IMG/VR virus record: IMGVR_UViG_3300040751_001413
Span: 1 to 36,362 of that record
Source: a virus
Length of the DNA: 36,362 nucleotides
Strand: one strand, 5' to 3'
Shown here: positions 878-34,800 of the stretch, piece by piece
Position numbering within the stretch: the stretch's first letter is position 1
Layout: each line of letters starts with the position of its first letter
The notes under the pieces: model-generated
What the model saw: the letters and a program-made list of their open reading frames with translations, nothing else
Databases searched by the model: none
Told to the model about the DNA's origin: nothing
Position numbers and translations under genes: made by a program

Positions 878-885
878 TATAAATA
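878..885 (-). promoter_or_regulatory. TATTTATA late-promoter-like element
   Basis: TATTTATA on the minus strand, 13 bases before the start of the partial virion gene, in the 66-base gap after the fibre-like gene. Confidence 0.6.
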
Positions 886-930: not shown

Positions 931-3543
931 TTAGTTAAAGGTTACACTATGTACGTGAGAATGTCCATCATAAAGGGTATAACCATTGTCACTACCACCT
1001 AATTGTGATGGAAGTGTTGATGTTGATGTACCACCTGATGGCCAATTACCCAAACACACTTTATTAATTGCGGTAACAAACGGTTGTCCCGATACCATTG
1101 CGGTTCTATTATCAGATAGTGACTTAACCGCTCTATAATAAGGGCCACCATAACAACCAATCATAAAATAGGTTTTTTCGGGGATTGTAATATTATTTGA
1201 AATATCCGAGTACTTCATAACACCCGAATAATAATTACCATATATCTGTGTAGTTAATTGTTGAACACTTTGCCAATTACCGATGGTATCTTGCGAGTTT
1301 GATTCAACATAGAACCATGTCCATGAATTAGACCCGTTTGTATGTGGTTGTAACCCTATGTTTTGCGTACCCGATGTTAATGTCACTTCTTGGTGGGCAT
1401 AATATAACTGCCACACAAAGTTGTTTGTGTCAAATGCATCTGTAGTTGTCACACCATCTCTCGATGAATAAGCATCAAATAATGTACCCGTTGTATAAGA
1501 CACCGCAGTACCCACACCACCAAGTACTTCTGTTGGTTCAGGTGTTGATGTTGGTATAGGGGTAGATGTTGGTTCGGGGGTAGGACTTGAGGTTGGTAAT
1601 GGAGTACTGTACTGTCTAACTGTAATAATCGAATTGTCCTGTACAGGAATTGTATTACCAATTGTAAATGTAATGTCCGTTGATGTATAAGTTGTAACAT
1701 CCAATTCACCATCCACATACACATAAATGTTCTTAGGACTATTTTGACTTTGGAAATCATATACAATTTGTAACCCAACCAACCCATTCGTGTGAGATAA
1801 TCCCGTTAGTGTTGTATTTTCGTTTGATGACATTGGGAAATCTCCCGTATCATACACGTTAGTATTAACATAAATGCGACTAACAGTCAAACCATTTAAA
1901 TCATTGTAAAAATTTAGTTGAACGTTACTGTTTGGTGTGGGTTCGGGCGTTGATGTTGGTTGTGGTGTCGCGGTTGGAGGTTCTGTTGCGGTTGGCATTG
2001 GTGTAGGTTGTTCCGTTGCCGTTGGATTAGGTGTTGAGGTTGGATTCTCTGTTACTGTGGGCATTGGTGTTGGTTGTGGTGTTGATGTAGGTTCGGGTGT
2101 TGGTGTCGATGTAGGTGAAGGACATGTCACGTTAAATGATTCGTACCTTGTTACAACACCATTAAAATCAGTTTCAATTATATGTTCGGTTGAACCCTGT
2201 ACCCAAATGCCGTTAGGTGCGTTGTTTGTACCAAAGTATTGATTAGTCACCCAACTTTGATTACTTGATATATTATTTGGATTGTAGAATTGGGTACCCA
2301 CACCTAAAGTACCATAATATTGACTTATAATATAGTTCCCCACTAACGCATTACATGTTGCTTCTGATAACTCTGAAAGGGTTAAACCACTCCAAGATAA
2401 AGATCCCATTCCCAAACTGTAATTAAACGATAATGGGATGTCATTTAAGACCTCTGTTGCCGTCGGGTTTGGTGTTGGTTCGGGGGTTGATGTGGGGTTC
2501 GGTGTTGGTGTTGGTTGTTCAGTTACCGTTGGCATTGGTGTAGGTTGTTCTGTTGAGGTTGGAACAGGTGTGGCCGTTGGGTTCTCCGTCGCAGTTGGAT
2601 TAGGTGTTACCGTTGGATTCGGTGTCGGACAAAGAGGTAATTGAGTGATATCGGTTATTGTCCCATTTTCATCGGTGGTAATCCACCTATAATCCGTCAT
2701 TGTATTGAACGTACCGAAAGTAGTTTGCTTAAAATGTAATAAGTTATCATTAGAATACGGGGTGTTATCATTAATGTTCGTAATAACATCACCTATATTA
2801 GGGATTTGAGAAGCATTCCCTGTTGTTGTTTTAGTAAGGTCAAAAACAATTTGGTTAATATCGTTATCACATATAAATGAATATATTGTCCCGTATGATT
2901 GTTCAACAAATGGTCGTATAAGTTCATTAAGCGTGATTGGATTATTAGAATTCGGATTAAATGATAAGACCACCCCCGAGAGTCTCGGTATTTGAGTTGA
3001 TGTTGGAGTTGGTGCTAATGTCTGTGTTGGTTCGGGAGTTGGTGTAGGTTGTTCCGTTGCCGTTGGGTTCGGAGTACTTGTCGGTAGTTCTGTTGATGTT
3101 GGTGTTGGGGATGGTGTTATACAATCCTTATATCCACATACTTTAAAATAGTGTGTCTCACCCGTATACCCCGTATAAGTGAATACGTCATTATTTAAAA
3201 TGAAATTTTTATATGCATGTAGTATGTTACCCTCACTATCTTCAATATTAAAATGTTCTGTAAAATCTTCGAATCTTATGGTTTCGGTTATCCCCGAATA
3301 TACGTAGTTAGGGTCGTTAGGTGTGTTATCAATCTCACATAACTCAACGCAAATCTTTAATATTGAATCATTCGTCAGGTTATTTTGAATCGCGATATCA
3401 TAACCAATCGGGTTTGTAAAATCAATGACTTTAGGGTCATAATCCCCATCAAAACCCGCAATTTCGTAGTCATACGTCTCCGAGTTATCAAGTTCTACAT
3501 CCAAACTTATACCTAAATTTCTTAAAATATCCTGACTATTCAT
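931..3543 (-). CDS. Tail-fibre/adhesin-like protein with four Pro/Thr-rich linkers
   Basis: An 870-residue protein of five globular modules joined by four Pro/Thr/Ser/Glu linkers (about residues 143-186, 305-364, 483-538 and 655-681) built from repeats such as PTPMPTVTEQPTPTPNPTST. Modules two and three (about 187-304 and 366-482) end alike: an acidic TD-x-NG turn, then about ten residues later a Cys-Pro at the next linker, suggesting a duplicated domain. The C-terminus is Gly/Ser rich and ends in a His cluster (DGHSHVHS), a feature seen at the tips of some phage fibres. There is no signal peptide or membrane segment. The ATG start is preceded by TATTTATT at five bases. A receptor-binding or decoration role is inferred from architecture; I recognise no named family. 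Confidence 0.7.
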   Translation of the reverse strand: MNSQDILRNLGISLDVELDNSETYDYEIAGFDGDYDPKVIDFTNPIGYDIAIQNNLTNDSILKICVELCEIDNTPNDPNYVYSGITETIRFEDFTEHFNIEDSEGNILHAYKNFILNNDVFTYTGYTGETHYFKVCGYKDCITPSPTPTSTELPTSTPNPTATEQPTPTPEPTQTLAPTPTSTQIPRLSGVVLSFNPNSNNPITLNELIRPFVEQSYGTIYSFICDNDINQIVFDLTKTTTGNASQIPNIGDVITNINDNTPYSNDNLLHFKQTTFGTFNTMTDYRWITTDENGTITDITQLPLCPTPNPTVTPNPTATENPTATPVPTSTEQPTPMPTVTEQPTPTPNPTSTPEPTPNPTATEVLNDIPLSFNYSLGMGSLSWSGLTLSELSEATCNALVGNYIISQYYGTLGVGTQFYNPNNISSNQSWVTNQYFGTNNAPNGIWVQGSTEHIIETDFNGVVTRYESFNVTCPSPTSTPTPEPTSTPQPTPMPTVTENPTSTPNPTATEQPTPMPTATEPPTATPQPTSTPEPTPNSNVQLNFYNDLNGLTVSRIYVNTNVYDTGDFPMSSNENTTLTGLSHTNGLVGLQIVYDFQSQNSPKNIYVYVDGELDVTTYTSTDITFTIGNTIPVQDNSIITVRQYSTPLPTSSPTPEPTSTPIPTSTPEPTEVLGGVGTAVSYTTGTLFDAYSSRDGVTTTDAFDTNNFVWQLYYAHQEVTLTSGTQNIGLQPHTNGSNSWTWFYVESNSQDTIGNWQSVQQLTTQIYGNYYSGVMKYSDISNNITIPEKTYFMIGCYGGPYYRAVKSLSDNRTAMVSGQPFVTAINKVCLGNWPSGGTSTSTLPSQLGGSDNGYTLYDGHSHVHSVTFN
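1501..1581 (-). repeat. Pro/Thr linker-coding repeat 4
   Basis: Shortest of the four degenerate short-period repeats in the fibre-like gene, encoding PT-rich residues about 655-681 just before the C-terminal module. Confidence 0.6.
1930..2097 (-). repeat. Pro/Thr linker-coding repeat 3
   Basis: Degenerate repeat, with plus-strand units like GGTGTTGGT and GTTGCCGTTGG, encoding residues about 483-538. It shares near-identical blocks with the linker at 2452-2631, so the two could recombine. Confidence 0.65.
2452..2631 (-). repeat. Pro/Thr linker-coding repeat 2
   Basis: Longest linker repeat, encoding residues about 305-364 with units of PTxxPTxTE and PTPxPT type. Confidence 0.65.
2986..3117 (-). 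repeat. Pro/Thr linker-coding repeat 1
   Basis: First linker after the N-terminal module, encoding residues about 143-186. The code is the same PT/TE mix as the other three linkers. Confidence 0.65.
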
Positions 3544-3548
3544 ATTCT

Positions 3549-3556
3549 AATAAATA
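3549..3556 (-). promoter_or_regulatory. TATTTATT late-promoter-like element (fibre gene)
   Basis: TATTTATT on the minus strand, five bases before the ATG of the fibre-like gene. Paired back to back with a plus-strand copy at 3574-3581 in the 53-base divergent gap. Confidence 0.65.
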
Positions 3557-3573
3557 TCTTTCATAACATTTGA

Positions 3574-3581
3574 TATTTATA
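3574..3581 (+). promoter_or_regulatory. TATTTATA late-promoter-like element
   Basis: TATTTATA on the plus strand, 15 bases before the ATG at 3597. With the copy at 3549-3556 it forms a divergent pair, each reading toward its own gene. Confidence 0.65.
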
Positions 3582-3596
3582 ATTAAACTACTTTGT

Positions 3597-4340
3597 ATGA
3601 ATAATTTTTTAAAACAGGTAATTGAAGAGAAATTTGTGTCTAAAGCACAACAGCGTTTTTTCTATGCTAAAGCCAACGAAAAGGGTTTAAGTAAGAAAGA
3701 AAAAAAGAAGTGGGAAAAGTACGCAAGTGAATTTTCTAAAGACACCAACTACGACGAGATTCCCGATAAAGTCACAGACGAAGAGAAGGAAGTCGATGAA
3801 ATCGTAGATGCAAAAGGTAACATCAAGAGAGGGTCTAAGGCGACCGATTTCCATGCTAAGGGAACAACATCAAAAAAGACCACAGACAAGACCGCTAAGG
3901 CGGTGGGTGGATCCCAAGGTACTCATGGAGTACACGGAACACACACATCACTAAGATATTGGGCAGAAACCGATATGAGTAAATCGTTAGGGTACGACGA
4001 CACTTTAGGTGATGATGAAAACTTTAAAAAGGCATACAAGCATTTCACTAAAACATTAAAGTTAACTCACGATGACGCAATGAAACGACTTGAGGATATG
4101 GGTTATGATGAGAAGTTACCTGAAGATAAAGTGAGGTTGGTTGAAAATCCAAAAAAATTTATGAAGGACTATGTTGAAACTGTCCTTACAAAGAAAAGTG
4201 AGGATAAAGACATTGTAAATGATAGTAAGAAAGATATTAACCCAATTATAAAAAGACAATTAATGTCTTTAAAAAACACATTAAAGAATAACAATCTGAC
4301 ATTATCGGATATAAAAGATTTTATAGAGGGAAATGAATAA
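3597..4340 (+). CDS. Conserved phage protein with SKAQQRFFYA motif; internal-head candidate
   Basis: A 247-residue charged protein. I chose the ATG at 3597 over a TTG at 3570 because the longer version would start inside the gap next to the promoter element. The N-terminus MNNFLKQVIEEKF is a short amphipathic helix ending in IEE, like T4 capsid-targeting sequences cut after [LI]xE. Then come SKAQQRFFYAKANEKG (similar to the start of DUF3008-type proteins), a Lys/Glu-rich stretch, a Gly/His/Thr segment around residues 100-112, and a C-terminal part with LRYWAETDMSKSLGYD and predicted helices. Function is unknown. It heads a plus-strand run with the next genes and overlaps its neighbour by 8 bases. 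Confidence 0.75.
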   Translation: MNNFLKQVIEEKFVSKAQQRFFYAKANEKGLSKKEKKKWEKYASEFSKDTNYDEIPDKVTDEEKEVDEIVDAKGNIKRGSKATDFHAKGTTSKKTTDKTAKAVGGSQGTHGVHGTHTSLRYWAETDMSKSLGYDDTLGDDENFKKAYKHFTKTLKLTHDDAMKRLEDMGYDEKLPEDKVRLVENPKKFMKDYVETVLTKKSEDKDIVNDSKKDINPIIKRQLMSLKNTLKNNNLTLSDIKDFIEGNE

Positions 4341-6479: not shown

Positions 6480-6487
6480 TATTTATA
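6480..6487 (+). promoter_or_regulatory. TATTTATA late-promoter-like element
   Basis: TATTTATA three bases before the ATG at 6491, in a 39-base gap. A TTATATTTTA stretch lies further upstream at 6463-6472. Confidence 0.6.
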
Positions 6488-6490
6488 AAC

Positions 6491-7090
6491 ATGTCAGAAA
6501 AACAAGGACCCATATCAACAGACGATTTAATGTCAAGATTAGTTAACGCTAAAAAAGTCATGACCGCAGTAGATGGTGGTGATTATAAGTCAGGGACTAT
6601 CGATCCAACCGCATTAACACAAGTCACCGAAAACCTAACTTCGGAACCAACATCAAAAGACGTTTCAAAAAGAAATGTTGCATCTAATGTCGTTAATGAG
6701 GATAAGATTAGAAACTCTAAATTACCTGACAGTATAAAAAATGCAATGATTAATAACCCAATACCAACTATGGATCAAATATCTTTAAGTGATGGTATTG
6801 ATATGTCATTTGTAGAAGGAGCAAAAAAACTAATGGAGAGAGAGGGACTAAGTAAAAAACAACCTGTTATTCAACAAACACAACCTAAACAACAAATCAA
6901 CGAATCTACTTCAGATATAAAATCTCTAATTAGAGAGACAATCAAAGATACTTTAGAGGAAATTGTAGATCGTAAATTAGAACTTCTTTTAACCGCATCA
7001 AAAACTGCGTCGGTAAATGAAACCTTAGTTCTTAAGGTAGGAGATTCAATATTCAAAGGTAAAATCACGGGTGTAAATAAAGCCAAATAA
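6491..7090 (+). CDS. Conserved phage protein, function unknown
   Basis: A 199-residue protein, Ser/Thr/Asn rich in the first half, then a helical segment (STSDIKSLIRETIKDTLEE, about residues 139-157) and a small beta-like C-terminal module ETLVLKVGDSIFKGKITGV. The TATTTATA element ends three bases before its ATG. The C-terminal GD-x-I-F-x-G-K motif recurs, as far as I recall, in proteins of T4-like marine phages, but no function is assigned. It ends the first structural-like block; the next gene begins the accessory block behind a different AT-rich element. Confidence 0.7.
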   Translation: MSEKQGPISTDDLMSRLVNAKKVMTAVDGGDYKSGTIDPTALTQVTENLTSEPTSKDVSKRNVASNVVNEDKIRNSKLPDSIKNAMINNPIPTMDQISLSDGIDMSFVEGAKKLMEREGLSKKQPVIQQTQPKQQINESTSDIKSLIRETIKDTLEEIVDRKLELLLTASKTASVNETLVLKVGDSIFKGKITGVNKAK

Positions 7091-10545: not shown

Positions 10546-11199
10546 ATGGAAATATTCATAAGTATTGATGGGGTTTTAAGAAATACGATTGCTAAGTTTG
10601 ATTACCACTACAAAGACTATTACTTAGATTCTGAACCTGAAGAAAAAACAGAGGAAGAGAATTCTTTTGAGTATGGACTAATCGAACCCGTAAAGAATAA
10701 TTTCTTACTTGAAAGTTATAAGTTTCAATCTAAAGATGAGTTTGATAATTTTACGTTTATCGACTATGCGGTTGAGATATTTGGACATGCAAACCCAAGT
10801 TATTCTAACGTGTTCTTTGAACTAAATAAGTTCATTTACGAAAATAAAGAACACAATTTCACTTTAATCGGATTGGATGAATTAGGTAAAGCAAAACCAT
10901 CAACTCTATTCTTTTTATCTAAAAATGGGTTTATGGGTAACAACATAAAATTTACCGCTTCTTCGGAAATTCCAAACTTATGGAAGAAATGTGATTTGTG
11001 GATTACAGATTCGAACGCAGTGATTGAGTATTCACCTAAGAATAAGAAGGTTATAAAGTTCAATACCGATTATAACCAACACTTTACAAATCCCTTAGAA
11101 ATACATAAATTAACAGAAATAGATAGAACATGGTTGAAGTCTTCGGAGAATATTATTACATCGACATTGACAAGATTACAGAAGTTTGTGAATTGGTAG
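10546..11199 (+). CDS. HAD-like protein with altered nucleophile site
   Basis: A 217-residue protein whose first residues (MEIFISIDGVLRN) look like motif I of HAD phosphatases, normally DxDGTL. Here the nucleophile position is Ser6 and only the second Asp (Asp8) remains, so classical phosphatase activity is doubtful. Later KKCDLWITDSNAVIEY and KVIKFNTDYNQ resemble the C-terminal HAD strands. The middle is acidic and variable. The 3' end overlaps the next gene by 70 bases in another frame. It could be a nucleotide- or lipid-modifying remnant or a binding protein; function is not known. Confidence 0.6.
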   Translation: MEIFISIDGVLRNTIAKFDYHYKDYYLDSEPEEKTEEENSFEYGLIEPVKNNFLLESYKFQSKDEFDNFTFIDYAVEIFGHANPSYSNVFFELNKFIYENKEHNFTLIGLDELGKAKPSTLFFLSKNGFMGNNIKFTASSEIPNLWKKCDLWITDSNAVIEYSPKNKKVIKFNTDYNQHFTNPLEIHKLTEIDRTWLKSSENIITSTLTRLQKFVNW

Positions 11200-13973: not shown

Positions 13974-13981
13974 TATTTATA
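13974..13981 (+). promoter_or_regulatory. TATTTATA late-promoter-like element
   Basis: TATTTATA three bases before the ATG at 13985. The whole gap after the sigma gene is only 18 bases, so the element fills almost half of it. Confidence 0.62.
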
Positions 13982-13984
13982 GGT

Positions 13985-14368
13985 ATGAGAAGAAAAAAGA
14001 ATTTATTGTCTTTAGATACAGATTCTGCACTCGCTCTCATGCAAGAGATCTACAACGATATTGTGGAACAAAAACAGACTGCAAGTATGATTACTAAAAA
14101 GATGTTGAGTTTCATGAAAGAGGCGGAGGATATGAGTGTAATTGGACCTGTAATAAAAGAACAGCAGAAGATCTTAAATGATTGTACGGAGAAGAAGATA
14201 TCTCTCGTAAAATTACAAAGTGCACTACTGAAACAAACAGGAGGTGGACAAACACAGCAGGGTGGTAAAATGGAACTATCTGAAGAGGATAGACTTTTAT
14301 TAGAAAAACTAATGAAAGAGGATGATGAACCATCTTCGGGAAGTGATTCCCAAAAATATAAAATGTAA
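13985..14368 (+). CDS. Small helical phage protein, function unknown
   Basis: A 127-residue, mostly helical protein: DTDSALALMQEIYNDIVEQK, then VIKEQQKILNDCTEKK, which can form a coiled coil, then a Gly/Gln linker (about 90-97) and an acidic end. It follows the late sigma factor but has its own TATTTATA element three bases before the ATG. It shares a TAATG junction with the large tail-region gene downstream, suggesting a role in tail or baseplate assembly. I considered a T4 gp33-like late co-activator because of size and position, but see no specific motif. Confidence 0.65.
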   Translation: MRRKKNLLSLDTDSALALMQEIYNDIVEQKQTASMITKKMLSFMKEAEDMSVIGPVIKEQQKILNDCTEKKISLVKLQSALLKQTGGGQTQQGGKMELSEEDRLLLEKLMKEDDEPSSGSDSQKYKM

Positions 14369-17960: not shown

Positions 17961-17968
17961 TATTTATA
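17961..17968 (+). promoter_or_regulatory. TATTTATA late-promoter-like element
   Basis: TATTTATA 18 bases before the ATG at 17987, in the 30-base gap after the baseplate gene. Confidence 0.62.
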
Positions 17969-19362: not shown

Positions 19363-19370
19363 TATTTATT
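19363..19370 (+). promoter_or_regulatory. TATTTATT late-promoter-like element
   Basis: TATTTATT three bases before the ATG at 19374. The entire gap after the previous gene is 13 bases and consists mostly of this element. Confidence 0.6.
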
Positions 19371-19373
19371 GAT

Positions 19374-19808
19374 ATGAAGAAACTAAAAGACGTTATTAAA
19401 AAACATTTAAAGAATCTACAAGAAGAAAGAACTGAAAACTATATGTTCTTCAGTAATTTAAAACAAATTCAAAGACAGTGTCAAATTCTTTTAGATTTAG
19501 ATCCTATGGTTATTGAAGATATTCTTCAAAACGGTCATGATTGGGCCGATGATCATATTACCGTCGCAAAAGAAAACGTAGATCAAGTAATGGATTTCTT
19601 GATGAACGAAACTAAAGACGAGTTACACGAAGGAAAGAAAAAATCAAATAAACTATGTTCAAGAGGTATTTCTGCCGCTAAGTCGAAATTTGATGTTTAC
19701 CCATCAGCATATGCCAACGGTTATGCGGTACAGGTATGTAAAGGTAAAATCAAAGGATTAGATGGTAAGAAAAAATGTTCAGGTTCTTACTGTAAAAAGA
19801 AGAAGTAA
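19374..19808 (+). CDS. Cys-rich phage protein with VYPSAYANGYA motif
   Basis: A 144-residue protein. I place the start at the ATG at 19374, not at an upstream in-frame TTG inside the previous gene. The N-terminus MKKLKDVIKKHLKNLQEE is an amphipathic helix ending LQE, a capsid-targeting-like signal. The C-terminal half has KLCSRGISAAKSKFDVYPS and AYANGYAVQVCKGKIKG, then CSGSYCKKKK. This Cys/Lys-rich VYPSAYANG motif recurs in T4-like marine phages in my memory; its function is unknown. It is coupled by TAATG to the next gene, which has related Cys-rich modules. Confidence 0.7.
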   Translation: MKKLKDVIKKHLKNLQEERTENYMFFSNLKQIQRQCQILLDLDPMVIEDILQNGHDWADDHITVAKENVDQVMDFLMNETKDELHEGKKKSNKLCSRGISAAKSKFDVYPSAYANGYAVQVCKGKIKGLDGKKKCSGSYCKKKK

Positions 19809-21720: not shown

Positions 21721-22120
21721 GTAAAGATCTTTCCTGTTGTTCTACCCATTTTTCTTTATTCTTGGTGGTACAATTTTCTTTACACACTACTTTCTTCACA
21801 CCCGCCTGTATCAGACCACGGGCACAATCCATACACGGTAACCCTGAAGTTAAATAGACTGTGGATCTTTTAAGTGAAACCCCTATACGTGCGGCATTAT
21901 AAATTGCGTTTCTTTCGGCATGTTCAAACCAAAAATATTTTTCAGGTCTTTCCTGTCTTTCATCTAAAGAGTCGTTTAAACCTCTTGGGAACGAATTATA
22001 CCCCGTTGTGAGTATCTCTTTATCTTCACCCACAATTACCGCACCTATTTGTGTGTTAATGTCTTTAGACTTCTCTTTTACTTGTTCCGCAATACTGATA
22101 AAATATTCTTTCCACTCCAT
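21680..22120 (-). CDS. dCMP/deoxycytidylate deaminase
   Basis: A 146-residue zinc enzyme that turns dCMP into dUMP, the precursor of dTMP. The catalytic HAE (67-69, in FEHAERNAIYNAA) and the zinc ligands PCMDC (95-99) are present, along with the N-terminal NTQIGAVIVG and GYNSFPRG motifs. The length is normal for phage enzymes. A strong terminator just upstream separates it from the capsid gene, and an AT element ends one base before its ATG, so it is a unit of its own. It works with the dUTPase at 9173-9793. The last 41 bases overlap the convergent cupin-like gene. Confidence 0.92.
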   Translation of the reverse strand: MEWKEYFISIAEQVKEKSKDINTQIGAVIVGEDKEILTTGYNSFPRGLNDSLDERQERPEKYFWFEHAERNAIYNAARIGVSLKRSTVYLTSGLPCMDCARGLIQAGVKKVVCKENCTTKNKEKWVEQQERSLLMFSECGVEVEFY

Positions 22121-22204: not shown

Positions 22205-23926
22205 TTATCTTAAAGTATCTAAGTTGAATGTTTGTAGACCCGCTACGTTAATTACACCAAAGTATCTGTTGTTGACCATCTTCTTAGCGTATCTCGTCAT
22301 GATACCTTTGATCGGTGTAAAGTTGAATGGGTTATACATAGTAGGAGTAAGTTGTAATGGTACGTATGGTGCGTAAATGTAACCAGCGTCCAATAATGAC
22401 TTACCTTTGTGTCCTACTAAGATCTTACCTGCAGGGAAGTAAGGATCTCTATACACTTGATATCTTCCCGCTAAAGTACCAACTTTCTCAATACCCATGT
22501 TGTACTGATCTTGTTCTGCACCTGCGTTAGATACGTGGAAGTACTCAAGGTCATCGAATACTGCTGAAACTTCAGAAGAAACAACGATCCAATTGGCACC
22601 ACCTCTTAGTGTAGTTTTATGGATTTGAGCCGATAATTGGTTAATTTTAGTAATTAACGTTTGGTTCCAATCCTTTTGAGTGTAACCTTGTAATGTTGCG
22701 TTGTTCGCTCCACCATATTTCCACTCATTGTAGTCCCACTTTAAGTTCCAAGCTGCACCTTTTCTTAAGTCTCTTAAGATTTCTCTATCCACCTCAGCCG
22801 CGATTTGCTCAGATAACAATGCTGTTAACTCAGCCTCAGCGTCAATGTTGTGGAATGCAGATACATCCTGAGCCAATTCAGGAGACCAGCTCGCTCTTAG
22901 TTTTCTTTCAGTTACCGATACAGTTACTGACTCTAAGTCAAAAGTAACCTCACCGATCTCATCTTCGAATTCTAAAGATGCGTATTGTCTGTAAGTTAGA
23001 GCGAAATCAGATGCCGCTTCAGTACCTGCTGCACTGAATTTTGAATAACCTGTTGATCCGTAAGTCTCAACATCTACATTTAGGTACATAACACCATTCT
23101 TATCTACGATGTCAGGATAAGTACCTGTAACACCGGCTTTTCTACTACCGTATTCTACGATACCTGAACCGTACTTCTGAGTTACAACGTTAAATGGTAA
23201 TTTAGCTCCACTGTTAATGTCTGCGTGTTTGATCTCTAAAGACGCTAAGAACTCTTCAGTGTCCATTTCGTTACCGTTAGGTCCAACAATTTTACCTGAA
23301 CCTGAGTTAGTAAATCCACTAACTTTTACGATAATAGATGAATAATCACCTACAGCGATAGTCGTCGCATCAGTTGCCTCACCATCAGCAAATGTTACTA
23401 CTGAAACACCTGTTAATGACTGTTCAGTATAGTTACCTTTAGAGTAGTCATATAGACCTTCACCTGCGTCATCACTTTCTTCATAGAATCTATCGTAAAG
23501 GTTTGTACCACCCGCACCATAGTTTGCACTTGAAGGAGAACTTGCACTTGGAGAACCAAATGGCTCAGAGTGAGTACCACCTGATGTTCTTTCTTGAATT
23601 TTAGGTACAAAGTAGAATAGTTTACCAATTGGTAAGTTCATAGCTTGTACAGAAACGATATCGTTTGCCAATAATTTAGAGAATACTCTTCTAATAATTG
23701 GAAAAACAACTGTTTCGAATGAACCTGATGCGTCAGACACAGCAGCTTCGTTAATTAGATAAGACGCTTGGTTTTCATATAACTGAGCGATGTTATCTTT
23801 TTGATGTCCATTAAGTCCCTCTAAGAAACCTAAGTCATCCCATTTTTTGATGGTATCTTCCTTGATAACTCTTAGGTGTTTTAACCCGATGTTACCAACC
23901 ATACCACTTTCTAATAATGCTCCCAT
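22205..23926 (-). CDS. Major capsid protein (T4 gp23-like)
   Basis: A 573-residue T4-type capsid protein, somewhat longer than T4 gp23. The N-terminal shell segment has FETVVFPIIRRVFSKLLAND and VSVQAMNLPIGKLFYFVPK; the C-terminus has YAPYVPLQLTPTMYNPFNFT and KGIMTRYAKKMVNNRYFGVI, all gp23 hallmarks. The middle (about 120-300) is a Gly/Ser/Thr-rich insertion. YLINE followed by AAVSD (residues 56-65) fits a gp21-type cleavage site after Glu60, close to the position where T4 gp23 is cut. It lies 33 bases after the scaffold gene with no TATTTATA of its own and ends at a strong terminator, so it is probably co-transcribed with the scaffold. Confidence 0.95.
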   Translation of the reverse strand: MGALLESGMVGNIGLKHLRVIKEDTIKKWDDLGFLEGLNGHQKDNIAQLYENQASYLINEAAVSDASGSFETVVFPIIRRVFSKLLANDIVSVQAMNLPIGKLFYFVPKIQERTSGGTHSEPFGSPSASSPSSANYGAGGTNLYDRFYEESDDAGEGLYDYSKGNYTEQSLTGVSVVTFADGEATDATTIAVGDYSSIIVKVSGFTNSGSGKIVGPNGNEMDTEEFLASLEIKHADINSGAKLPFNVVTQKYGSGIVEYGSRKAGVTGTYPDIVDKNGVMYLNVDVETYGSTGYSKFSAAGTEAASDFALTYRQYASLEFEDEIGEVTFDLESVTVSVTERKLRASWSPELAQDVSAFHNIDAEAELTALLSEQIAAEVDREILRDLRKGAAWNLKWDYNEWKYGGANNATLQGYTQKDWNQTLITKINQLSAQIHKTTLRGGANWIVVSSEVSAVFDDLEYFHVSNAGAEQDQYNMGIEKVGTLAGRYQVYRDPYFPAGKILVGHKGKSLLDAGYIYAPYVPLQLTPTMYNPFNFTPIKGIMTRYAKKMVNNRYFGVINVAGLQTFNLDTLR

Positions 23927-23959: not shown

Positions 23960-25282
23960 TTATTTTAATTTTGACATCAAATCCTTCATTCTCTTGAATT
24001 GAGGACTCTCATACGCTTTGGCTTCTGAAAGTACTTCTTGAGATGAAGATGTTGTCGGGGTTGATGCGATCTTATTAACGACCGCTTCAGTAACATTTTT
24101 CTTAGATCCTAACTCACCCGCGATTGTTTTATAGGTTGATTTAGATTCAGTTAAAGATGTGACAGAGTCAAATCTTTGCAAAATGTTTAATTTCTCTTGA
24201 CGAGTAGTAGAATGTTCGGTGAACAATCTCGTAGCGTATGCCAAGTTAGCGTTGAACACTGCAACTTCGTTTAGTTTCTCTTTAAATAGAACTAACGCTT
24301 TCTTGTATTCTGCGTTTCGTTTCTTTAAAGTTTCAACCTCTTCGTTAATTGCACCTGCCTTGTACTTAGTTTTAGACTTAATACCGGCTCTGTCCATACC
24401 ACCTTTGTCACCGTGTACGTTTGATTTAGTTCTTGCCGCTTCATCAACTTCCTCTTCGTGAGAATCGTCCTCTTCAGAGACTTCTTCGGATACTTCTTCT
24501 TCCATATCATCTTCAGATACTTCTTCTTCCATTTCCTCAGATACTTCTTCAGACACTTCTTCGTCGACTTCTTCAGACACATCTTCTAATTCGATTTCAT
24601 AGATTGAGTCGTCATCTTCTTCAGACACTTCTTCTTCCATAGAGTCACCACATTCTTGGCAATCCTCTTCTTCAGATACTTCTTCGTCGTAGCCACCTTC
24701 GTGTGCTTCTTCGTCGTGTCCTTCAGCGACTTCACCCTCTTCGTCATCTAATTTGATGATGTACTCTTCGTCTCCGTCTTCGAGTTCAACGTTATTACCA
24801 TCTCTCTTCACAACGATTCCGTCTTCGTCTCCCATTTTCTTGAAAACTGCTAAGACTTCTTCGTCAGAAGCGTTGGTCATGTCGAGTACGTCCTCATCAT
24901 CTTCCTCATCATCCGCTGCGGGTAATTCTAAATCATCGTCACCATCTAATGATAGTTCGTCAGATTCGTCGTCACCTTCATCGTCTAATTCGGCATCCAT
25001 TTGATCAGGATCCTCGTCATCCGCTGGTTCGTCGTTTATCGAAGCTTCGTCGTCATTTCCTTCCTCGTCATCAAATTGTTCCGAGACCGGCATATCATGT
25101 TCGTCTTCTGTAATAGGAGTTTCGTTACCCTCAACTACCTCTTCTTCCATAGATTCTTTAAGCACTTCGTTTAGTTCTTCCTTCATAGTTGAAGCAAGTA
25201 TACCTTTTGCGTTTGCTTTAACTGCCTCCTCAAGATCTTGTACTTGAAGCAATGCTTGTTCTAAAATGGATTCTTTGCTCAT
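23960..25282 (-). CDS. Acidic prohead scaffold protein (T4 gp22-like)
   Basis: A 440-residue extremely acidic protein. Residues about 45-290 are mostly Asp/Glu, including repeated EEVSEE units; one CQEC pair interrupts this. The C-terminal part (about 300-440) is helical and includes EVETLKKRNAEYKKALVLFK and FNANLAYATRLFTEHSTTRQ, which match the coiled core of T4-like gp22 scaffolds, and it ends FKRMKDLMSKLK. The position between protease and capsid genes is the T4 order. The scaffold forms the prohead core and is later degraded by the gp21 protease. A TATTTATT element lies 20 bases upstream of the ATG. Confidence 0.88.
   Translation of the reverse strand: MSKESILEQALLQVQDLEEAVKANAKGILASTMKEELNEVLKESMEEEVVEGNETPITEDEHDMPVSEQFDDEEGNDDEASINDEPADDEDPDQMDAELDDEGDDESDELSLDGDDDLELPAADDEEDDEDVLDMTNASDEEVLAVFKKMGDEDGIVVKRDGNNVELEDGDEEYIIKLDDEEGEVAEGHDEEAHEGGYDEEVSEEEDCQECGDSMEEEVSEEDDDSIYEIELEDVSEEVDEEVSEEVSEEMEEEVSEDDMEEEVSEEVSEEDDSHEEEVDEAARTKSNVHGDKGGMDRAGIKSKTKYKAGAINEEVETLKKRNAEYKKALVLFKEKLNEVAVFNANLAYATRLFTEHSTTRQEKLNILQRFDSVTSLTESKSTYKTIAGELGSKKNVTEAVVNKIASTPTTSSSQEVLSEAKAYESPQFKRMKDLMSKLK
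24444..24693 (-). repeat. Degenerate EEVSEE-coding repeat in scaffold gene
   Basis: Short-period repeat visible on the plus strand as CTTCTTCAGATACTTCTTC-type units, coding for EEVSEE and EEVDEE. It is low-complexity coding sequence, so reading frames on the opposite strand here are artefacts. Confidence 0.7.
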
Positions 25283-25302: not shown

Positions 25303-25310
25303 AATAAATA
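25303..25310 (-). promoter_or_regulatory. TATTTATT late-promoter-like element (scaffold gene)
   Basis: TATTTATT on the minus strand, 20 bases before the scaffold ATG, in the 82-base gap after the protease gene. Confidence 0.62.
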
Positions 25311-26067: not shown

Positions 26068-26075
26068 TATAAATA
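26068..26075 (-). promoter_or_regulatory. TATTTATA late-promoter-like element (protease gene)
   Basis: TATTTATA on the minus strand, 19 bases before the protease ATG, in the 41-base gap after the preceding gene. Confidence 0.65.
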
Positions 26076-26595: not shown

Positions 26596-26603
26596 TATTT
26601 ATT
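26596..26603 (+). promoter_or_regulatory. TATTTATT late-promoter-like element (phage rpsU)
   Basis: TATTTATT on the plus strand, 13 bases before the ATG of the phage bS21 gene, suggesting late expression. Confidence 0.58.
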
Positions 26604-26616
26604 GATATTAAGAATT

Positions 26617-26808
26617 ATGCTAATAGTAAAAGTCAAAAAAGGAAATATTGAAGGTGCGATAAAAAAATTGCGCTCCAAGGTCAGGAACACTAAACAATTA
26701 ATCAAACTGAGAAAAGAGAAGGAATATACTAAACCTTCAGTAAAGAAGAGACTTAAAAAACAGAAAGCGGTTTATATTCAAAAACTACGGGATCAAGAGT
26801 GTCATTAA
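26617..26808 (+). CDS. rpsU: Phage-encoded ribosomal protein bS21
   Basis: A 63-residue basic protein that aligns along its length with bS21: MLIVKVKKGNIEGAIKKLRS, then a helix, the R-K-E-x-E-Y-x-K-P-S turn (about 32-41) and a C-terminal helix KKRLKKQKAVYIQKLRDQE. The MLIxxVK start and the A-V-Y-I-Q-K-L ending are those of Bacteroidota bS21. Tyr53 sits where, from memory of the Flavobacterium johnsoniae ribosome, bS21 Tyr54 helps hold the anti-Shine-Dalgarno end of 16S rRNA. I chose the ATG at 26617; an upstream in-frame ATT is not needed. There is no Shine-Dalgarno. It is the only plus-strand gene between 22120 and the right edge, placed among head genes. Confidence 0.88.
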   Translation: MLIVKVKKGNIEGAIKKLRSKVRNTKQLIKLRKEKEYTKPSVKKRLKKQKAVYIQKLRDQECH

Positions 26809-27618: not shown

Positions 27619-29454
27619 CTATTCTTGTATAATGTCTTTGAGTTTATTCTCTATCTCATAAATATTCTTTTGTGCCTTATCGACATCAAAAAGATCATCA
27701 AAATCTTGAGATTCATCACCTAACATACCTAATATCTTAGATTTCTTAGTTGATGTTTTGGATTCAGATAATGGTTCGTCTCCACCAATATCAGGTGGTG
27801 GGGGTGATCCTCCTCCAATATCGCCACCTAAGTCTCCACCGGCATCACCTCCTTCTGCAGGTGACATCGAATCTTCCATTGCTTGTCTTTCCTCTTCAGG
27901 AATTCCGTACTTCTTATCTACCTCATCAAATACCCCTGTTCTCTTAATGATGTTTTGGGTAATACCTAACTCAGCACCCAACGCTCTCTCAAGTCTCTGT
28001 TGTTGTAGATCAAGAATAACATCGTTATCACTCATACCAAGTATGTTCTTCTTAGCCCATGTATGTGAAACAGGTTGGATACCGATCTGAGATTGATCTG
28101 AAGTCGCATCTTTATATAGAGTAATCTTCTCTTTCCACTGTTCAATCTTAAGTAAATCTGATTGTGCCGATGGATTTGTAAGTGATAATGTGAAATTATC
28201 TAACTCATCCTCTAAACCTAATAGGTAGAGATGTACTAATGCAATTTTATTTAATTCTTGTATTAGGGATTTTTGTACTCTGTTGATTGTTCTTGCAAAA
28301 CGTATATCCATAAGTGCAAGACTCTTACCCTCACCAACGATCTCTTCAAAACCTAAGAACGCCTTTGGTATTCTAAGTGCTGCGAGAAGTTTCTTTTGGA
28401 TATATTCGATATCGGCAATTTCACCTAAGTTCTGAGCTCCCGGTAAAGTTTCAATTGGAGATGACTGTGATGGATCACGAACAGGAATGAAATAATCTTG
28501 ATCAACCGCCATTTGGTTGTATCTCATATCTACCTGACCATTTCTTTGATCGACAATCTGATCTCTTTTAAACTTGTTGGCGACACGTTGTACGTACGCC
28601 TCGATATCTTTATCATCCATGTTACCCACGAACACTTTGAATACCCTTCTTTCAGGTGCCCTCGAAGTTCTATAGATTAACATAGCATCCTCCGCAAGAA
28701 GTAATTGTTTCCAAATACGTCTTACTTTATCTAACATAGAAGTTCCATAAGGGAGTTTTCTATCATCACCCAATAATCTAAAGTGTGCGACTTCCCACGC
28801 TTGGAATTCCATATCCTTATTCTTCCAAGTAAATCTTAACTCTCTACTTGGTAACTGAACACCTGCAGATGGTTCTGATTTGTGTACATGAGATGCGGCA
28901 CCTTCATGTCTTTCAATTTCAATATTGGGTAACTGTTGACATCCAACCACACCTCTTTCAGGATCTATTTTTAGATAAACAAAATTATCCCCATACTTTG
29001 CCAAACCTCTACACCACATTTGTAGGTTAGTGTTAATGTCAAGTACGTTATTAAAAAGATCTTCTAATATGTTTCTAACTCTTTTAGATTCTGAATATAC
29101 GGTTAGTATTTGACCCTTTTCTGAAAGTGTCGTAGATTCCTCTGAATAGATATCTAAAGCCGCAGATATCTCAGGAGTAAATTCCATTGATTCATAATCG
29201 TAATATGCTGCCAACCTATTTGGTTCGTAATAAACCGATTGATTATATAGGGACTGATCCAATTTAGTCCACTTATCCGCAATGTATTGTGATTGTTGTC
29301 TTTGTAGAAGTTCTCTCTCGAAATCCTCTTTACTATCTGTTTTTAACAGTTTGTCTCTATCAAACTTATACTGCGGAGGGGTTGACGGTTTTTCCGTTTG
29401 GAAACCGAACACCTTCGTCAATCTTTGATAAACTGTCAAATTTTCTTGAGCCAT
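27619..29454 (-). CDS. Portal protein (T4 gp20-like)
   Basis: A 611-residue T4-type portal protein that forms the dodecameric ring for DNA entry and exit and starts prohead assembly. Typical segments are YYEPNRLAAYYDYESMEFTP, LDIYSEESTT, WCRGLAKYGDNFVYLKID, AHFRLLGDDRKLPYGTSMLD and APERRVFKVFVGNMDD, then PKAFLGFEEIVGEGKSLALM. The C-terminus (about 530-575) is an Asp/Gly/Pro-rich linker followed by a helix (YEIENKLKDIIQE). The length is a little above T4 gp20. A TATTTATT element ends three bases before the ATG. It follows the terminase gene directly; the T4 tail sheath and tube genes normally between them are absent here. Confidence 0.94.
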   Translation of the reverse strand: MAQENLTVYQRLTKVFGFQTEKPSTPPQYKFDRDKLLKTDSKEDFERELLQRQQSQYIADKWTKLDQSLYNQSVYYEPNRLAAYYDYESMEFTPEISAALDIYSEESTTLSEKGQILTVYSESKRVRNILEDLFNNVLDINTNLQMWCRGLAKYGDNFVYLKIDPERGVVGCQQLPNIEIERHEGAASHVHKSEPSAGVQLPSRELRFTWKNKDMEFQAWEVAHFRLLGDDRKLPYGTSMLDKVRRIWKQLLLAEDAMLIYRTSRAPERRVFKVFVGNMDDKDIEAYVQRVANKFKRDQIVDQRNGQVDMRYNQMAVDQDYFIPVRDPSQSSPIETLPGAQNLGEIADIEYIQKKLLAALRIPKAFLGFEEIVGEGKSLALMDIRFARTINRVQKSLIQELNKIALVHLYLLGLEDELDNFTLSLTNPSAQSDLLKIEQWKEKITLYKDATSDQSQIGIQPVSHTWAKKNILGMSDNDVILDLQQQRLERALGAELGITQNIIKRTGVFDEVDKKYGIPEEERQAMEDSMSPAEGGDAGGDLGGDIGGGSPPPPDIGGDEPLSESKTSTKKSKILGMLGDESQDFDDLFDVDKAQKNIYEIENKLKDIIQE

Positions 29455-29457
29455 ACT

Positions 29458-29465
29458 AATAAATA
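29458..29465 (-). promoter_or_regulatory. TATTTATT late-promoter-like element (portal gene)
   Basis: TATTTATT on the minus strand, three bases before the portal ATG, in the 46-base gap after the terminase gene. Confidence 0.65.
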
Positions 29466-29500: not shown

Positions 29501-31279
29501 TTAAAGTTGTTTAGATTTACCACCAAACAACCACGAGTACTCTTGGTACTGTTCTCTCGATAAATTATTGTTTGAGGGGTTGTTTGGTTGTCCGTCCATT
29601 GACATTGAACCCACCGCATCAAACGCGGTTCCATGTGAGTAAAACGATTTTTTCGGTTCGTAGGTTCTTTCGGATAAAACCCACGAATCTAACATCGCCT
29701 TATTCGCACTATCATTTCTCTTTAATTGGGTAAAACAGATATCCCCCACATACATCGCAATTGCCATAGCCATGATAGCGTCATCATGTGCTCCTTTCAT
29801 GTGGTTTGGTCTACCATTAATATAAACAAAGGTGTTTAACTCATTAAGTAATCTTGATGATCTAACCACAAACCCATGTCTTAACTGTTCCTCAAAACTC
29901 GCAACGATTTGTGTCCTCTTATTATTAAAGTTTATACCGGGTATTTTCTCTTGCGCTTTCTTATTGTATTGCCACATATTCATGGAATTAACTCCATCTA
30001 TATATTGGTCTTTGTAACCCATTTCTTGTAGTTTACGAGAAGTTGCAATACCCATACCACCTGTTATATCTGTTGCGACAAATGCCTTATACAAAACACC
30101 CCACTTATACACGATAGACGCTAAGTCGTCGGGTGGTATCTTACCAACATATTCCGCAACTTGTTCTCTTTCGTCAAAATCAATCACACAGATAGAAGAT
30201 GCATCTGCACTATCACCTCTTGAAACGTCGACACCCATTATATACCTATGACCTTCCACAGGTTCTTTCCACATCCACATCGTGCCCTGCATGTATTTTT
30301 CTACAGGGTCCTTTATCATCGTTTTTCTAATTCTTTCCTGAATGTCATTTGGGATAACACCATCCCCTGAACCAAGGAAATCACACTCCAATTCCTGTGC
30401 GATTTTTCTCTTATCGTATTTGAATTTTTTAGCCATGTTCTCAAACCAATGAGAATAGGGTTTGTATCCTTCTTCGAGTAGTTCTTCATAACGTTGCCAT
30501 CCTTCCTCTAAAGTAATCTCCCCGTCATTATACTGTTCCCTATTTAACATGTAATGAATGATATCATCAACCTTTAACCACTTAAGGTCACCTGCGTAAC
30601 GAGGATCTTTAAACCACCTTAAATCGGTGATTTTAAAGTCATTCATTCCCCTTAACGCTTGGTCATATACACCATAGTATATTGGATCATATCCGTTTGG
30701 TGTGGAAATGAGAATCACCTTACCACCTGTTGATAAGGATGCCATACACGCAGCCCAAAAATCTTCACCCGCTTCAATATATGCCGCCTCATCAAATACA
30801 AGTACTGTTGGTGTGTATCCACGGAGTGCATCCGCAGATGTCGCAACCGCCTTTACCTCACAACCGTTATTCATTCTATAACGACTCTCCGAATTTTTAT
30901 CAGGTGAAAACCCAACATTTATCCACTCAGGCCATTGATCTAAGAATCCACGTATTTTGTTCGCCATCTCGATGGCCGTATCTCTTTTATTCGCAATGAT
31001 CAATATCCTCTCAGGATTGTCAGGACTTGCGGTTTGTATCTTCTTGGATAACCACGCCGCTGTCACTGTAGATACACCCGCCTGTCTATATTTACGAGTG
31101 ATATTTTCGTTATAGTTATCATAATCATTAATCAATTCAATTTGATCAGGAAATAACTCTAACGGTACATACTTCTTTTGTGTGTTATCGTATGTTTGTA
31201 GATATGTCTTCAACGCATATGGAGTATCTTTCATGATCTTGGCATACTCCTTAAGTTGTAATAGTTTGTTCTTATCCAT
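29501..31279 (-). CDS. Terminase large subunit (T4 gp17-like)
   Basis: A 592-residue DNA-packaging motor with N-terminal ATPase and C-terminal nuclease. The Walker A region is RQAGVSTV (65-72), which lacks the usual Lys of GKT but matches the variant loop of some T4-like terminases. Walker B is VLVFDEAAY (159-167), and the coupling motif is ISTPNG (191-196). Nuclease acidic residues appear at IMGVDVSRGD (Asp351), ATDITGG (Asp404) and HDDAIMAMA (498-506). It lies alone between a terminator and the portal gene, behind a TATTTATA element four bases from its ATG. Confidence 0.95.
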   Translation of the reverse strand: MDKNKLLQLKEYAKIMKDTPYALKTYLQTYDNTQKKYVPLELFPDQIELINDYDNYNENITRKYRQAGVSTVTAAWLSKKIQTASPDNPERILIIANKRDTAIEMANKIRGFLDQWPEWINVGFSPDKNSESRYRMNNGCEVKAVATSADALRGYTPTVLVFDEAAYIEAGEDFWAACMASLSTGGKVILISTPNGYDPIYYGVYDQALRGMNDFKITDLRWFKDPRYAGDLKWLKVDDIIHYMLNREQYNDGEITLEEGWQRYEELLEEGYKPYSHWFENMAKKFKYDKRKIAQELECDFLGSGDGVIPNDIQERIRKTMIKDPVEKYMQGTMWMWKEPVEGHRYIMGVDVSRGDSADASSICVIDFDEREQVAEYVGKIPPDDLASIVYKWGVLYKAFVATDITGGMGIATSRKLQEMGYKDQYIDGVNSMNMWQYNKKAQEKIPGINFNNKRTQIVASFEEQLRHGFVVRSSRLLNELNTFVYINGRPNHMKGAHDDAIMAMAIAMYVGDICFTQLKRNDSANKAMLDSWVLSERTYEPKKSFYSHGTAFDAVGSMSMDGQPNNPSNNNLSREQYQEYSWLFGGKSKQL

Positions 31280-31283
31280 ATCC

Positions 31284-31291
31284 TATAAATA
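31284..31291 (-). promoter_or_regulatory. TATTTATA late-promoter-like element (terminase gene)
   Basis: TATTTATA on the minus strand, directly after the T-tract of the upstream terminator and four bases before the terminase ATG. Any transcript starting here has almost no leader. Confidence 0.72.
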
Positions 31292-31292
31292 C

Positions 31293-31319
31293 AAAAAAAG
31301 TGGTCGTGTTGACCACTTT
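31293..31319 (-). terminator. Terminator before terminase gene
   Basis: Perfect nine-base stem AAAGTGGTC/GACCACTTT around a five-base loop, followed on the minus strand by seven T. It begins four bases after the stop of the gene at 31323-32687. Confidence 0.88.
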
Positions 31320-31322
31320 GAG

Positions 31323-34792: not shown

Positions 34793-34800
34793 TATAAATA
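34793..34800 (-). promoter_or_regulatory. TATTTATA late-promoter-like element
   Basis: TATTTATA on the minus strand, 33 bases before the ATG at 34759. The extended form TATTTATAATATA is identical to that at 35906-35913. Confidence 0.62.

Follow-up and report, generated by a model that had tools for sequence, protein, structure and literature searches.

We propose that a T4-like phage lineage expresses its late genes from a single octamer, TATTTATA/T, which would be a late promoter of the T4 type, limited to a -10 element and recognized by a gp55-like sigma factor, and that a subset of these genes, including the terminase and portal genes, would be translated from leaderless messages. We give this reading, which is built on sequence comparison, a probability of roughly three in four. 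The window (i.e., the whole stretch of DNA analysed here) is the viral IMG/VR record IMGVR_UViG_3300040751_001413, with 36,362 bases and a G+C content of 35%. It contains head genes of the T4 supergroup, namely those of the terminase, the portal, the prohead protease, and the major capsid protein (Table 1), and its clade, a widespread family of T4-like phages, probably has Bacteroidetes as hosts. Our comparison set consisted of 80 terminase relatives and of pieces of ten longer contigs, whose genes were called and grouped into families.

Table 1. Features of the window. The gap is the number of nucleotides between an octamer and the ATG downstream of it.
Feature	Positions	Strand	Basis or conservation
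Large terminase subunit (T4 gp17-like), 592 aa	29501..31279	-	phrog_2, Terminase_6N
Portal protein (T4 gp20-like)	27619..29454	-	Portal_T4, E 7.5e-78
Prohead protease	ATG 26048	-	Peptidase_S77
Major capsid protein	22205-23926	-	Gp23
Putative gp55-like late sigma factor, 233 aa	13265..13966	+	Remote homology, several searches
Ribosomal protein bS21, encoded antisense to its neighbors (portal-side genes and protease)	26617..26808	+	PF01165, E 3.8e-11
Intrinsic terminator, 9-bp stem AAAGTGGTC/GACCACTTT, loop AACAC, T7 at 31299-31293	31293..31319	-	Terminator scan
Terminase octamer TATTTATA, 4 nt before ATG	31284..31291	-	Kept in 67/74 distinct relatives at gap 3-7
Terminase ATG, with the transcription start predicted at A (31279) or within about 2 nt	31277..31279	-	Deduced from octamer +4 to +6
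TATTTATT, gap 5 to 870-aa ORF starting at 3543	3549..3556	-	Octamer scan
TATTTATA, gap 3 to ORF 6491-7090	6480..6487	+	Most orthologues without a conserved close-class promoter
TATTTATA, gap 3 to ORF 13985-14368	13974..13981	+	Close class in 9/9 contigs
TATTTATT, gap 3 to ORF 19374-19808	19363..19370	+	Close class in 6/9 contigs
TATTTATT, gap 3 to portal ATG (29454)	29458..29465	-	Close class in 11/11 contigs
TATTTATA, leadered class, gap 15 to ATG 3597	3574..3581	+	
TATTTATA, leadered class, gap 18 to ATG 17987	17961..17968	+	
TATTTATA, leadered class, gap 19 to prohead protease ATG (26048)	26068..26075	-	
TATTTATT, leadered class, gap 20 to ATG 25282 (gene upstream of major capsid gene)	25303..25310	-	
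TATTTATA, leadered class, gap 33 to ATG 34759	34793..34800	-	
TATTTATA, leadered class, gap 13 to ATG 864	878..885	-	

An Octamer Found at Two Distances from Start Codons

The octamer, an 8-bp TATA-like element, is enriched in front of genes in their own orientation. Over the entire window it is not over-represented (90 matches with at most one mismatch, for 113 expected); therefore its position, and not its abundance, carries the signal. When the contigs are pooled, 185 of 360 octamers are intergenic, at no more than 60 nt from the gene downstream, with which they share their direction, while intergenic DNA makes up about a tenth of the sequence. We measured the octamer-to-ATG gap in 271 gene families from 11 contigs, taking one gene per family and the 5'-most ATG as gene start, a rule on which the starts outside the terminase mostly rest. 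The distribution is bimodal, with a sharp mode at 3–6 nt, a near-empty interval at 7–9 nt, and a broad mode from 10 nt up (25, 3, and, for 10–22 nt, 31 families by per-family median). Gaps of 3–6 nt occur in 25 of the 271 families; 1000 column permutations gave a mean of 0.8 and never more than 5. Gaps of 10–22 nt occur in 27 families, against 2.8 expected (one gene per family, 11 contigs). The genes with the short gap, hereafter the close class, represent 25 of the 77 families with an octamer promoter, i.e., about a third of them.

The class to which a promoter belongs is specific to the gene. The terminase gene is close-class in all 11 contigs, and the portal gene and ORF 13985 are just as constant (Table 1). 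The protease gene and the genes starting at 25282, 3597, and 34759 are of the distant class in every orthologue that bears an octamer, with the exception of one contig in which a second copy of the octamer lies near the 34759 orthologue. Leaderlessness would thus be restricted to particular genes, in which it is conserved, and would not extend to all late genes. The sequence-only reading had listed six genes of the window (starting at 3543, 6491, 13985, 19374, 29454, and 31279) with the element 3–5 nt before the ATG; all six do carry TATTTATA/T at this distance, three of them in the form TATTTATT and not TATTTATA. Two of the window's promoters face away from each other in the divergent pair 3543–3597, where TATTTATT on the minus strand (gap 5) and TATTTATA on the plus strand (gap 15) are found within 53 bases, an arrangement that is kept in relatives.

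The octamer is absent within 60 nt of the major capsid gene, whose transcription probably begins at the promoter of the gene at 23960–25282. The octamer map of the window, with an octamer at gene 25282 and none at this distance for the capsid gene behind it, agrees with RNA mapping in bS21-encoding phages, where the capsid gene and the gene upstream of it may be co-transcribed (PMC9723584).

Other candidate elements were rejected. The true element could have been the reverse complement, TATAAATA, the late promoters then being antisense, but this sequence shows no positional peak; likewise, the canonical T4 sequence is not the element here, TATAAATA/AATAAATA being without a positional peak. The host sigma-A promoter (TAnnTTTG) gave 33 matches and no peak, and the host box of PMC6847099 has a T-7 and a G-5 that are missing from TATTTATA. 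Matches to the sigma-70 consensus are rarer than in shuffled sequences. No conserved -35 element was seen, since positions upstream of the octamer hold at most about 0.3 bits, except for A at -3 and -1; at the terminase gene, the -35 region is the terminator. A further motif, TATATTTT, is similar to the -7 box of host sigma-A and stops 3 nt short of the ATG at 10546 (+) and at 22120 (-), where leaderless starts from host-type promoters are also possible. A literature search of titles and abstracts returned no report of TATTTATA as a phage late promoter.

The Proposed Terminator–Promoter Junction of the Terminase Gene

On the minus strand, the stop codon of the upstream ORF (TAA, 31323) is followed by the hairpin, the seven T, G31292, TATTTATA, GGAT, and the ATG of the terminase gene. 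A GC-rich hairpin with a U tract, as in intrinsic terminators, is present here and in the relatives. The order given by the sequence-only reading (hairpin with seven T, element, four bases, ATG) stands; its statement that the element follows at once needs a correction of one base, because a single G lies between the T-run and the octamer.

We compared 74 distinct terminase upstream sequences, from relatives with about 76–99% protein identity to the window and from further relatives obtained with a clade-2 query. The hairpin is kept in all 74, and its stems differ with their pairing preserved (GTGGTC/GACCAC, GGGGGT/ACCCCC, GGTGG/CCACC, GGGGC/GCCCC, GGGAGG/CCTCCC, and others). Where the octamer does not lie at the usual distance (Table 1), it is found at gap 13 in one sequence and is changed or missing in six (e.g., TATATAAT). 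In one subclade (L038, L043, L044, and L046), the position behind the terminator is taken by TATATAAT or TATATATA and not by TATTTATA. The N-terminus of the terminase before the conserved QLKEYA block varies in length, and the octamer stays with the ATG. Terminator, octamer, and ATG therefore remain locked together in the relatives, which supports a leaderless terminase message. In the proposed mechanism, the terminator would end the upstream unit and the promoter would come directly after it, so that the message would be produced mainly from its own leaderless start.

Conversely, readthrough of the upstream operon could supply most of the messages from which the terminase is translated, the terminator being leaky late in infection and the octamer minor or secondary; long leaders through the terminator were one of the outcomes that the sequence-only reading had named as contrary to it. 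The upstream genes are indeed codirectional, the terminators may be read through during infection, and readthrough by a modified polymerase occurs in other phages. We nevertheless consider this alternative unlikely, as the terminator, the octamer, and the ATG are conserved jointly despite the changing stems and as RNA mapping in bS21 phages with this gene order showed that no single operon covers the structural region (PMC9723584).

Position of the Predicted Transcription Start

The leadered promoters offer a way to place the start. In 49 leadered families, an A is found at octamer +4, +5, and +6 in 65%, 82%, and 69% of cases, respectively, for about half at most other positions, and transcription would start at this peak. 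Close-class genes have the A of the ATG itself at octamer +4 to +6, except in two families where it stands at +7. The start suggested by the leadered promoters thus coincides with the A of the ATG, which favors the earlier proposal that the terminase message begins at the ATG or within a few bases of it. Moreover, the base at -1 is a T in 23 of 28 close-class families, compared to 108 of 246 others (p 1e-4). This T before the ATG creates a pyrimidine-A initiator step, which provides an independent argument for the ATG as the start point. According to our own placement of TATAAATA on the T4 numbering (PMC7892883), however, +1 would fall at octamer +6, which counts against this reading.

Transcription could also start 1–3 nt past the A, in which case close-class messages would be deprived of an intact AUG and the promoter would serve an internal start or the next gene. 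The gap-3 promoters lend themselves to this view: octamer +5 or +6 would lie inside the start codon, +5 being the T of the ATG. For these promoters the commonest start would be this T and, therefore, a start one base earlier is required by the leaderless reading; this group constitutes the main uncertainty on the start position. Yet the pyrimidine-A step at the ATG, with a T at -1 in 82% of the close class, makes a start past the A quite improbable, as does the conservation of the terminase and portal start codons, whose first codons look coding. Indeed, the N-terminus of the portal is conserved next to the ATG and, in the close clade, codons 2–15 of the terminase show 4, 0, and 11 variable sites at first, second, and third codon positions, respectively. 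Since, in addition, the next in-frame Met of the terminase (codon 16) is replaced in some relatives, a true start further downstream, an outcome that the sequence-only reading had named as contrary to it, does not hold for this gene.

A gp55-Like Sigma Factor as Probable Reader of the Octamer

The presence of a gp55-like sigma factor gene in the phage makes a T4-type late -10 element the best reading of the octamer. The late promoters of T4, used with gp55, gp33, and gp45, consist of the same kind of single 8-bp TATA-like -10 element in front of late genes, with no conserved -35 and with a phage sigma containing sigma region 2 (PMC2988020, PMC7892883). The T4 element differs, being TATAAATA instead of TATTTATA, and in the T4 late genes examined it lies 14–28 nt from the ATG, leaving a leader.

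The 233-aa protein of the window is found by phmmer with T4 gp55 (E 6.7e-6), matches phrog_234 "late sigma transcription factor" (E 7e-4) and, weakly, Sigma70_r2, and aligns to the gp55 profile in hhalign (P 3.5e-5, probability 72); among solved structures, its best sequence match is gp55 (PDB 7d7c, E 0.0013). Its structural model is modest (pLDDT 61). Over residues 8–141, this model can be aligned with sigma region 2 domains, that of gp55 among them, and VIA-align gives gp55 a Z of 10.5 with an rmsd of 9.3 over 108 residues, a range in which helical matches can be non-specific; Foldseek alone returned no match below E 0.001 for this model. Orthologues are present in 8 of 10 relatives. The protein is thus only remotely related to the T4 sigma, and it has about 90 additional C-terminal residues that are absent from the latter. 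Its gene lies directly upstream of the close-class promoter at 13974–13981. A gp45-type clamp, known in T4, was not matched here (no PF02916 match in six records, possibly because of fragments or divergence). One contig, G001 (IMGVR_UViG_3300042731_005759), encodes a second, longer sigma factor beside the gp55-like one (133478–134278, +; Sigma70_r2, 2e-17).

T4 gp55 reads nontemplate adenines at -12 (Y97), -9 (N13, H95), and -8 (T99) (PMC7892883). In our alignment, which is weak, the tyrosine equivalent to Y97 is kept in the 233-aa protein, and H95, N13, and T99 are replaced. On the T4 numbering, TATTTATA keeps the A at -12 and -8 and has a T at -9 and -10. The changed -9 contacts would fit the T at -9; the T99 change is not explained in this way. 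Homology and co-occurrence point to the 233-aa protein as probably the reader of the octamer. Carried by the host RNA polymerase, this sigma factor would recognize the octamer without a -35 box and direct a start about 4–6 nt downstream, so that most late genes would receive a leader. The terminase gene, the portal gene, and several unknown genes form a conserved subset whose start codons would coincide with this start point, and their mRNA would begin at the AUG or within 1–2 nt of it.

That the AU-rich octamer beside the ATG is a translation or RNA-processing signal, and no promoter, is very improbable: it does sit where ribosome-binding signals usually do, in phages without Shine-Dalgarno sequences, but this octamer, followed by the same A-peak, also occurs 10–45 nt from other genes, the distances of 7–9 nt are avoided, it directly follows terminators at several genes, and both the clade and the phage immuto carry a late sigma factor.

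Predicted Leaderless Messages, Probable Host, and Related Phages

Leaderless mRNAs are known for lambda cI and in mycobacteria and actinobacteria. They have the AUG at the 5' end, as would be the case here, do without a Shine-Dalgarno sequence, and present a -10 element only a short distance ahead of the start codon, as in the window. Unlike in these cases, the leaderless genes would belong here to a phage sigma regulon and form a fixed subset of it. In the clade, no clear Shine-Dalgarno signal was detected (19 of 275 genes versus 10 in shuffled sequences, compared to 23 of 35 versus 5 in T4), as is also the case in Bacteroidetes. Gene order, the lack of a Shine-Dalgarno signal, and the relatedness to immuto lead us to infer a Bacteroidete host. 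In this phylum, 3.7% of the 5' UTRs of B. thetaiotaomicron (PMC7366714) and 5.5% of those of F. psychrophilum (PMC9723704) are shorter than 10 nt, and in F. johnsoniae 13% have leaders that do not exceed 10 nt (PMC6847099). Leaderless messages thus represent a small minority in Bacteroidetes, hence their use would be unusual for the likely hosts.

Flavobacterium phage immuto (Immutovirus) has a sigma factor of the same family (27% identity, E 5e-19) and, as in the window, a terminator and then TATTTATA before its terminase gene. It differs in that this octamer is 17–18 nt from the ATG (i.e., leadered), only 3 of its 27 promoters being of the close class. As immuto shares the octamer and the terminator–promoter order, it is the leaderlessness that would be characteristic of the window clade. 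bS21 was not found in immuto, unlike in the window clade, where it is present in 10 of 10 relatives; in the window, a TATTTATT lies about 13 nt upstream of the bS21 gene (26596–26603). The same antisense bS21 gene inside a terminase–portal–protease–capsid block was described by Chen et al. 2022 in Bacteroidetes phages (PMC9723584), which we liken to the window by gene order and not by sequence identity; the main text of that article does not mention promoters, sigma factors, or leaderless messages. A speculative and rather doubtful possibility is that late translation has two tiers and that phage bS21 remodels host ribosomes, thereby favoring or tuning late messages with an initial AUG or a very short leader separately from the leadered capsid and protease messages, the link between bS21 and leaderlessness resting on two lineages only.

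If the proposed reading is true, a T4-like lineage has moved its late promoter onto the start codon of a fixed set of genes. It would show how a phage may set late protein levels in a host that ignores Shine-Dalgarno sequences, and it would tie promoter placement to the unexplained phage bS21. Immuto, which was isolated on Flavobacterium and has the shared sigma factor and octamer together with a leadered terminase, would provide a laboratory system for comparison.
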